Positions 8,456 to 10,871 of a stretch of DNA of 35,089 bases are shown one piece after another. Origin of the DNA: Pseudomonadota bacterium (GTDB taxonomy: Bacteria; Pseudomonadota; Gammaproteobacteria; Xanthomonadales; Rhodanobacteraceae); NCBI GenBank assembly GCA_021815695.1, contig JAKAZT010000009.1:1-35089 (forward strand), in the 5' to 3' direction. A program made the translations under genes and the position numbers. The notes beneath the pieces are model-generated. The model was not told the DNA's origin, did not search any database, and worked only from the letters and a program-made list of their open reading frames with translations. Numbering within the stretch: the first letter of the stretch is position 1; every line of letters begins with the position of its first letter.

Positions 8456-9067
8456 TCAGAATCCGGCACCCTTGAGATAGGCGGCCAGGCCCGACAGGAA
8501 CATCTGCACCGACAGGGCCACCAGCAACATGCCCATCAGGCGTTCGAGAGCGGTCAGCACGCTCTCACCCAGCCAGCGGAACAGGTAGGTCGAGGACAGC
8601 AGGATCACCGCCGTCGCCAGCCAGGCCAGAAACAGCGCCACGCTCCATTGCAGCAGACGCCCGGGCTGGGTGTTGGTCAGCAGCAGCAGGGCCGCCATTG
8701 CCGACGGCCCGGCGACGCCCGGGATCGCCATCGGAACGATGAACGGCTCACCCTCGCCGACGGCGCCGAAGATGCCGCCCTCCCTGGGCGGAAACACCAT
8801 CTTGATACCGATCAGGAACAGCACGATGCCGCCGCCGATGCTGACCGATTCCTGGCGCAACTGCAGCACACGCAGCATCACCTGCCCGCCGAGCAGAAAG
8901 GCGAACAGCACGCCCAGCGCGATCAGCAGCTCGCGCAGCAGCACTCGTCGCCGGCGCTGCGGCGCGACGTTCTTGAGCAGGCTGAGGAACAGCGGAATGT
9001 TGCCCAGCGGGTCCATGATCAGAAACAGCAGGATGCCCGCGGACAGAGCGTTGACCGGCGCGTCCAT
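8456..9067 (-). CDS. MarC/YhgN-family integral membrane protein
   Basis: This 203-residue protein belongs to the MarC (UPF0056) family, closest in appearance to E. coli YhgN. Six hydrophobic segments are visible. The N-terminus has the family hallmark FLIMDPLGNIPLFLSLLK (about 15-32), and a second conserved stretch PFIVPMAIPGVAGPSAMA lies near residue 110, giving the two-fold pseudo-symmetric layout of the family. The biochemical function of MarC proteins is not established; an early multidrug-resistance role was withdrawn in the literature. It starts 12 nt after the SDR stop on the same strand, so it probably sits in one transcript with grxD and the SDR. Confidence 0.9.
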   Translation of the reverse strand: MDAPVNALSAGILLFLIMDPLGNIPLFLSLLKNVAPQRRRRVLLRELLIALGVLFAFLLGGQVMLRVLQLRQESVSIGGGIVLFLIGIKMVFPPREGGIFGAVGEGEPFIVPMAIPGVAGPSAMAALLLLTNTQPGRLLQWSVALFLAWLATAVILLSSTYLFRWLGESVLTALERLMGMLLVALSVQMFLSGLAAYLKGAGF

Positions 9068-9079
9068 GACCGTGCGCGC

Positions 9080-9853
9080 TCAGCCCGTGACGCGCAGGTC
9101 GAGCAGCGCGCCGCGCGCTGCCATGCCGGCCGCCGAGAGCAGGTAGACAGCCGCCACCGCCGTGGCATCGGGCAACGGATGCTGGCGCGTGTCCTCGCCG
9201 AACCAGGCCATCTTGCGCAACGCCGTGCGCATCGGCGCCGGCAGCAAGGCATGGACCCGCAGCGCGCCGGCGTCGTGTTCCTGGTGCAGGATCGCGGCCA
9301 GCGTTTCCAGACCCGCCTTGGCGACGCCGTAGGCGCCCCAGTGGGCACGACGCATGCGCTCGAGGTCGTCGAGCACGAACACCGCCGCGCTGTCGACGCG
9401 CGCCTGCAGCAGCGGCAGCAGCGCCTGCATCAGCAGGAACGGCGCGGTCAGGTTCACCTGCAGCACGCGCAGCCATTCCTCGGCGGACAGCACATCCAGA
9501 GGGGTCAGTCCGTCGAAACGCGCCGCCGCGTGCACAACGCCGTCGAGACCGCCGAGGTCGCGCTCGATCGCCGCAGCGACACCCTCGCAATCACGCGGGC
9601 TGGCGCCCTCGAGATTGAGCGGATAGATCGCCGGCTCGGCAGCACCGGCGGCCTTGATCGCGTCATACACCGACTCCAGCGCACGCACGTTCCTGCCGAG
9701 CAGGACCACGCTGGCGCCGGCAGCAGCACAGGCCAGACTGACCGCCCGGCCCAGACCGCCGCTGGCACCGGTCACCAGGATCACGCGACCCGCAAGGGTA
9801 TCCGTGCCCGCAGTCCAGCCGTCGGGCAGGCGCGCCACAGGCAGCGCGATCAC
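9080..9853 (-). CDS. YciK-like short-chain dehydrogenase/reductase, degenerate active site
   Basis: This SDR protein has 257 residues from a GTG start whose first bases overlap the grxD stop (GTGA, 4-bp overlap), implying translational coupling. The Rossmann TGASGGLG motif (about 28-35) and the Tyr175/Lys179 pair (WGAYGVAK) are intact. The catalytic Ser expected 13 residues before the Tyr is Asp162 (VFVLDDLERM). The NAG motif reads HAAA, and the PG motif after the sixth strand reads LLPAP. By length and order it resembles E. coli YciK, itself of unknown function. It may bind NAD(P) without standard SDR chemistry. An in-frame ATG far upstream lies inside grxD and is unlikely. Confidence 0.88.
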   Translation of the reverse strand: MIALPVARLPDGWTAGTDTLAGRVILVTGASGGLGRAVSLACAAAGASVVLLGRNVRALESVYDAIKAAGAAEPAIYPLNLEGASPRDCEGVAAAIERDLGGLDGVVHAAARFDGLTPLDVLSAEEWLRVLQVNLTAPFLLMQALLPLLQARVDSAAVFVLDDLERMRRAHWGAYGVAKAGLETLAAILHQEHDAGALRVHALLPAPMRTALRKMAWFGEDTRQHPLPDATAVAAVYLLSAAGMAARGALLDLRVTG

Positions 9854-10173
9854 ACGCGCGCCCTTCCGGCATCGCGCACGATGCGCTCGAGCTCGCCGGA
9901 GGCCTGCAACTCGAGGGTGATGTCGCAGCCGCCGATCAATTCGCCGTGCACGAACAGCTGCGGAAACGTCGGCCAGTTCGAGTAGTGCGGCAGGCCGGCG
10001 CGAATCTCCGGATCCTCGAGCACGTTCACGGAATGGTAGTCCGCGCCCACCGCGCGCAGAGCCTGTGCCGTGCGACTGGAAAAGCCGCACATCGGAAACT
10101 GCGGCGTGCCTTTCATGAAGAGCACCACCGGATGGGCATCGAGGATGCCCTTGATGCGTTCGTCAATGTCCAT
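9850..10173 (-). CDS. grxD: Monothiol glutaredoxin, Grx4 family
   Basis: This 107-residue monothiol glutaredoxin carries the signature CGFS (Cys29; [15 protein letters not shown]), the WPTFPQL cis-proline segment and GGCDI of the glutathione site. Grx4 proteins bind a glutathione-ligated [2Fe-2S] cluster as homodimers or with BolA-type partners and hand clusters to Fe-S proteins. A BolA-family protein (IbaG) is encoded elsewhere in this window (33,386). The ATG at 10173 matches the family N-terminus ([22 protein letters not shown]). It lacks a clear Shine-Dalgarno, and an in-frame ATG 16 codons upstream is an alternative. It is divergent from sodB, another iron or oxidative-stress gene, across about 120 bp. 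Confidence 0.95.
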
Positions 10174-10292: not shown

Positions 10293-10871
10293 ATGGCGAT
10301 CGAACTTCCCGCGCTGCCGTTTGAGCGCACCGCGCTGGAGCCACACATCTCCGCCGAGACGCTGGATTACCATCACGGCAAGCATCACCAGACCTACGTC
10401 ACCAACGTCAACAATCTGATCAAGGGCACCGAGTTCGAGAGCCTGTCGCTCGAGGACATCGTGCGCAAGGCCAGCGGCGGCCTGTTCAACAACGCCGCGC
10501 AGGTCTGGAACCACAGCTTCTACTGGCAGTCGCTGTCGCCGCGCGGTGGTGGCGACCCGTCGGGCAAGCTCGCCGACGCGATCGTCAAGGCATTCGGCAC
10601 GATGGACAGGTTCCGCGAGGAATTCAGCAAGACCGCGATCGGCACTTTCGGCTCCGGCTGGGCCTGGCTGGTGCAGCGACCGGACGGCTCGCTGGGCCTG
10701 GTCAGCACGGCCAATGCCGCCACGCCGCTGACCGGCGCCGATCACGCCCTGCTCACCTGCGATGTCTGGGAACACGCCTACTACATCGATTACCGCAACG
10801 CGCGGCCGAAGTATCTCGAGGCGTTCTGGAAGCTGGTCAACTGGGAGCACGCCGCCAGCCGGATGTCCTGA
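10293..10871 (+). CDS. sodB: Iron superoxide dismutase
   Basis: This cytosolic superoxide dismutase has 192 residues. Metal ligands are visible as His27 (DYHHGKHH), His74 (VWNHSFYW), Asp157 and His161 ([11 protein letters not shown]). Gln70 within NNAAQVWNH is the position and residue typical of Fe-type rather than Mn-type enzymes, so SodB is preferred, although cambialistic use cannot be excluded. An excellent AAGGAG lies 8 nt before the ATG at 10293 and rejects the longer upstream reading. It is divergent from grxD. A perfect GC hairpin lies about 70 bp after the stop but has no T-run. Confidence 0.97.

Follow-up and report, generated by a model that had tools for sequence, protein, structure and literature searches.

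An aspartate at the catalytic serine position of a YciK-like short-chain dehydrogenase/reductase encoded behind grxD

Escherichia coli YciK (b1271; PDB 3f1k, 3iah) is described in the accessible part of PMC11841063 as an uncharacterised gene annotated as a putative oxidoreductase. In the portion of PMC8228696 available to us, yciK is one table entry among E. coli oxidant-resistance genes, which we did not take as evidence, and the accessible text of PMC3793261, which is about another short-chain dehydrogenase/reductase (SDR), was set aside. A search of the open-access literature found no discussion of an aspartate in YciK-like proteins. In another SDR family, however, an aspartate is part of a working active site. 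According to the sections of PMC8996148 and PMC1618733 that were available, the triad of pteridine reductase 1 (PTR1) is Asp181-Tyr194-Lys198, spaced 13 and 4 residues; the Asp acquires a proton from solvent, the Tyr passes it on and the Lys secures the nicotinamide; activity is lost when the triad is mutated.

We analysed a stretch of 35,089 nucleotides (hereafter, the window) from a member of the GTDB family Rhodanobacteraceae that encodes a YciK-like SDR with an aspartate where the catalytic serine is expected. Our preferred explanation, to which we assign a probability of roughly 0.5, is that this protein is a catalytically active NADP(H)-dependent reductase, belonging to a YciK-like lineage that has long carried Asp-Tyr-Lys instead of Ser-Tyr-Lys.

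The gene, its protein and its neighbours

The translated minus-strand frame (Table 1) contains TGASGGLG (residues 28-35), HAAA (108-111), VNL (with Asn134), FVLDD (with Asp162), Tyr175, Lys179 and LPAP (204-207). Each residue named by an earlier, sequence-only reading of this DNA was recovered: the TGxxxGxG cofactor motif, the tyrosine and lysine of YxxxK, an aspartate at the place of the catalytic serine, HAAA for the NAG motif and PA for PG. To these we add the asparagine of the catalytic tetrad, which is retained as Asn134. Asp162 precedes Tyr175 by 13 residues, as Ser152 precedes Tyr165 in E. coli YciK, and occupies the same alignment column. The protein scored 115 bits against PF00106, the classical SDR family. 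Its top NCBIfam model was YciK (NF006509), at 203 bits; because this falls under the 269-bit cut-off, we class the protein by sequence as YciK-like and not as YciK proper. Its closest solved relatives by sequence were 3i1j (165 bits) and the YciK entries (3f1k, 3iah and others, about 124-127 bits), and an AlphaFold2 model, built on an alignment of five near-identical sequences, had a mean pLDDT of 45. All eight other SDRs read in the same genome have an active-site serine, which is at Tyr-13 in seven and at Tyr-14 in the eighth; these eight, four of them computed and four read by eye, come from 11 other search matches in a genome that holds further SDRs.

Table 1. Features of the SDR locus in the window.
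Feature	Position	Strand	Remarks
YciK-like SDR, 257 aa, GTG start	9080..9853	minus	active site Asn134, Asp162, Tyr175, Lys179
Asp162 codon (catalytic serine position of the SDR)	9368..9370	minus	counted from the start at 9853
GTGA overlap of grxD stop (TGA) and SDR start (GTG)	9850..9853	minus	
grxD, Grx4-type monothiol glutaredoxin	9850..10173 (start possibly 10221)	minus	TIGR00365 139.5 bits, cut-off 117.1
Membrane protein of the MarC/YhgN family, downstream of the SDR	8456..9067	minus	NF008010 224 bits, cut-off 215
Fe/Mn superoxide dismutase (sodB-like), divergent from grxD	10293..10871	plus	PF02777 138 bits, PF00081 112 bits

The GTGA overlap with grxD, also described in the sequence-only reading, is present, and the sodB-like gene on the far side of grxD scored 321 bits against the Fe-type superoxide dismutase model NF007832, just below its cut-off of 348. 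Counting neighbours relative to the SDR glycine motif, we found that the gene immediately upstream, in the same orientation, is grxD in every one of the 142 assessable loci of the window's GTDB family (one of the 143 loci has no upstream sequence), and the two frames overlap in 118 of the 134 loci scored with start codons picked by script. The same adjacency was seen in 25/25 loci from five further families of the order, in 0/19 loci from five others, and in 0/68 loci from the class outside the order. Matches to marC (140/142) and sodB (63/63) were similarly frequent among family loci with enough flanking sequence.

The suggestion that the SDR is tied to an Fe-S glutaredoxin thus holds as far as adjacency is concerned, but a special tie between the aspartate and GrxD is not supported: the residue is acidic (Asp or Glu) in 18 of the 19 genes of the order that do not adjoin grxD, and in 40 of the 68 genes from outside the order, none of which has grxD upstream. 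Because of those 18 genes, the aspartate is probably older than the grxD neighbourhood, and on both counts we reject its origin as an adaptation to GrxD. The adjacency itself may reflect co-expression only, with marC and sodB being conserved neighbours as well.

Outside the order, the gene keeps different company. In 37 of the 68 loci it lies behind HpnD and/or HpnE on the same strand, and in 16 behind MupP/Gph or UbiG, three loci having neighbours of both types; of the proteins used as queries for these neighbours, HpnE and UbiG score above their NCBIfam cut-offs and HpnD and MupP/Gph below theirs. In those genomes the SDR may be functionally linked with squalene-type lipids or ubiquinone. 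A link with HpnE does not explain the gene in the window, since the family retains the SDR despite a lack of HpnE matches in all 41 of its genomes searched (E 1e-30).

Conservation of the acidic residue

In the window's GTDB family, 143 of the 147 genomes carry an SDR gene of this type (E 1e-30). One copy was read from each, and the serine position is acidic in all 143 (139 Asp, 4 Glu). The triad Tyr and Lys are each present in 143/143, and the position of the tetrad Asn is more variable (128 Asn, 8 Asp, 6 Gly, 1 Ala). At positions 54 and 55, Arg or Lys occurs in 142 and 135 of the 143 members, respectively; basic residues there favour NADP(H). No internal stop was seen among the 143 frames as extracted, some of which are cut by contig ends; 12 search rows from the family have a stop in the matched stretch, in each case outside the gene as extracted. 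A relative at 91% identity is carried by a Lysobacteraceae metagenome assembly. When set against relatives 92-93% identical to it, the gene gave a dN/dS of ~0.12 in six comparisons (dN 0.03-0.04, dS 0.25-0.38), some of which count the same organism twice; it is under purifying selection. Together, the invariant acidic residue, the stop-free frames and the low dN/dS rule out a lone divergent or decayed copy.

Elsewhere in the order, 116 of 123 genomes were matched, and 44 of these were read, the other 72 being mostly weaker matches. The serine position in this set is Asp in 31, Glu in 9, Asn in 4 and Ser in none. The sequence-only reading had proposed such an alignment as a check on whether the aspartate is fixed, and had set against its own interpretation the case of a single divergent gene among relatives that keep serine; that case is not what we found, either at this position or in the conserved link to grxD. 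The lysine is another matter. Although Tyr is kept in 44/44, only 22 genes retain the Lys of YxxxK; 21 have Gln and one has Asn instead, and the tetrad Asn is sometimes lost in these sister families as well.

In the class outside the order, 108 of 184 genomes matched (E 1e-25) at about 37-52% identity. Among the 68 that were read (the 40 others were mostly weaker matches), the position holds 39 Asp, 14 Ser, 6 Ala, 4 His, 3 Gln, 1 Thr and 1 Glu. One of these 68 sequences and one of the 44 from the order hold a stop as extracted; both were kept. In a FastTree phylogeny of 131 sequences with the Asp162 column masked, a branch with support 94 separates the order from the remaining sequences. The residue at this position requires 16 state changes on that tree and 15 on the tree with the column included; the Ser state requires five on each and sits among Asp sequences. 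These trees have many weak forks, contain 14 of the 143 family sequences and are without an outgroup, and the counts are therefore silent on whether Ser was gained or lost. Judging from the sequences compared, Asp is an inherited state of the SDR lineage, which appears old and widespread, and Ser is the rarer state among the relatives read.

Six genomes of the family (four from the window's genus and two from another) also encode another YciK-like SDR, 35-41% identical. In every one of the six, His occupies the serine place, Phe replaces the catalytic Tyr, and the Lys is kept. By eye, two of these genes adjoin one for a small protein resembling high-potential iron-sulfur protein, and three are near one for a cytochrome-like protein.

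Catalysis with Asp-Tyr-Lys

The sequence-only reading had taken the missing serine to mean that normal catalysis is lost, and hence that the protein could be a redox sensor or scaffold. This conclusion does not follow, because PTR1, in the accessible accounts of it, works with Asp-Tyr-Lys at this very spacing; moreover, an aspartate is found at Tyr-13 in all 12 loci that we read of the bacterial pteridine reductase PRK09135. In light of the parasite enzymes, which work with the same arrangement, we consider that the SDR is more likely a working reductase than a dead sensor. Activity is further supported by (i) the invariance of the acidic residue, the Tyr and the Lys across the family, (ii) the mostly basic residues at positions 54 and 55, (iii) the absence of stops and the dN/dS of ~0.12, and (iv) a phenylalanine, Phe113, discussed later. 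Two observations argue against it. Outside the order, 14 of 68 relatives have Ala, His, Gln or Thr at the serine position, indicating that the wider clade tolerates residues that are neither serine nor acidic; and the loss of Lys in 22 of 44 members of the order outside the family speaks against a strict need for hydride transfer in that clade. Both fit a loss of catalysis in some branches, and a non-catalytic role in the sister families is possible.

If the SDR is active, we postulate the following mechanism. Lys179 and Asn134 would bind the ribose of the nicotinamide and depress the pKa of Tyr175, which would deliver the proton. Asp162, in the role that Asp181 has in PTR1, would take in a proton from solvent and hand it on to Tyr175; it would thus relay a proton, where a Ser would polarise a carbonyl. 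With a carboxylate at position 162, acceptors that are basic or carry a positive charge (C=N, iminium or a heteroaromatic ring) may be preferred over plain ketones, and the substrate is perhaps imine-like or heteroaromatic. Yet C=N chemistry does not call for an aspartate here, because the imine-reducing SDRs presented in the available part of PMC7540600 keep and need their serine: a Ser-to-Ala variant nearly lost imine reduction. A C150D substitution at the neighbouring position, in the same portion of that paper, indicates that an acidic residue nearby is tolerated, and nothing more. Reduction of C=N is therefore one of several possibilities for this protein.

The non-catalytic interpretation can be restated more generally, as an NADP(H)-binding pseudoenzyme that has kept its Rossmann fold and cofactor site and acts as a redox sensor or scaffold, for instance on GrxD. 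The replaced serine, the loss of Lys and sometimes Asn in the sister families, and the position of grxD, upstream throughout the family (mostly with overlapping frames there) and in five more families of the order, are all in its favour. Nevertheless, we regard it as unlikely: Tyr and Lys are invariant in the family, Asp-Tyr-Lys is a working triad in PTR1 as reported in the accessible literature, the acidic residue is present in nearly all genes of the order that grxD does not adjoin, and the adjacency may mean co-expression only.

Alternatively, the SDR may be a carbonyl reductase of the ordinary kind, in which Asp does no more than take over the hydrogen bonding of Ser and which acts on the same substrate as the Ser-type YciK proteins. 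The drift of this position among seven residues in the 68 relatives outside the order is consistent with such a substitution, as are the five tree changes to or from Ser and its placement among Asp sequences. No such drift is seen in the window's family, however, where only Asp and Glu occur. Further, position 113 is Phe in 134/143 members of the family and in 36/44 from the rest of the order, compared with 4/68 outside it, where Leu predominates (45/68); this difference suggests a different pocket. We consider this alternative, too, to be improbable.

Comparison with pteridine reductases and YciK

The active-reductase interpretation raises the question of how closely the SDR resembles pteridine reductases, which can be compared within the same genomes. 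A PRK09135 pteridine reductase scored over the cut-off in 55 of the 59 family genomes searched (the 12 loci read are from these 55), and 53 of the 59 contain both this enzyme and the SDR. Asp162, Tyr175 and Lys179 align with Asp, Tyr and Lys in 12/12 PRK09135 proteins, so these organisms employ the triad in another SDR as well, and Phe113 aligns with Phe in 12/12. From the motif NAS-x-F, together with the PTR1 literature, we take this aligned residue to be Phe113 of Leishmania major PTR1 (LmPTR1), which stacks on the pterin. Two other PTR1 residues are absent. The arginine of TGxxxRxG (LmPTR1 Arg17), present in 12/12 PRK09135 proteins, is Gly33 in the SDR (136 Gly, 6 Ala and 1 gap in the family column, n=143), and the serine of NAS (LmPTR1 Ser111), likewise present in 12/12, is Ala111 (115 Ala, 24 Val, 4 Thr, n=143). 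Because the equivalents of Arg17 and Ser111 are thus Gly and Ala, a pterin substrate is not indicated. With 63 bits against the PRK09135 model (cut-off 288), the SDR is by sequence not a pteridine reductase, though it may work like one.

The window's genus presents a special case. Of its 13 genomes, 12 encode a member of the pterin-dependent aromatic hydroxylase family PF00351 and 11 encode DHFR, and none has a match over the cut-off to either PRK09135 or PRK06483 (FolM). We considered whether the genus had lost its pteridine reductase, which would leave an opening for the SDR to take its place. This idea is weakened by a diverged PRK09135 relative (177-198 bits, cut-off 288) in 8/13 genomes; at the four loci read, in three genomes, this protein keeps the Asp and Tyr and has Arg for the Lys of YxxxK. 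No match to it was found at E 1e-50 in the window's own genome, which is 88% complete. That the SDR is a true pteridine reductase of the PTR1 or FolM type, serving the aromatic hydroxylase of the genus, is therefore very unlikely, despite the shared Asp-Tyr-Lys and Phe113 and the empty PRK09135 and PRK06483 counts: the Arg and Ser are missing, the model score is low, the SDR and PRK09135 enzyme are not alternatives where 53 of 59 genomes hold both, the diverged relative may already fill the slot, and DHFR is present in most of the genus.

A more specific form of the active-reductase interpretation is speculative and, in our estimation, rather unlikely as a whole. It would have the SDR as a near-universal NADP(H)-dependent reductase of Lysobacterales and their relatives that has arrived at a PTR1-like Asp162 and Phe113 on a YciK-like scaffold. 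The compound reduced would be an imine or a planar nitrogen heterocycle, which need not be a pterin, and the SDR gene would be locked behind that of an Fe-S glutaredoxin because the reaction's substrate or product has a place in redox or cofactor housekeeping.

If the SDR is indeed active, many gammaproteobacterial YciK-like proteins would be enzymes with an Asp-Tyr-Lys rather than a Ser-Tyr-Lys triad, and the less typical case would be E. coli YciK, the annotated member whose crystal structures are known. A testable question would then attach to a widespread protein, namely, for which acceptor a carboxylate is required in place of a hydroxyl, and caution would be warranted in calling SDRs dead for want of the serine.

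Set beside the known systems, the SDR shares with PTR1 of Leishmania and Trypanosoma, and with PRK09135, the Asp at Tyr-13, the Lys at Tyr+4, the tetrad Asn and the stacking Phe, and differs from them in the glycine-motif Arg, the NAS Ser and overall similarity. With the YciK-like SDRs of other Gammaproteobacteria, it belongs to the same family by sequence, and more than half of those read also have the Asp; they differ in their frequent position behind HpnD/HpnE and in the Leu common at position 113. With E. coli YciK and the protein of PDB 3i1j, it has in common the Asn, Tyr, Lys and a WGAY motif, but these have Ser at Tyr-13 where the SDR has Asp, and the E. coli gene lies in the context yciK-btuR, as opposed to grxD-SDR-marC here.
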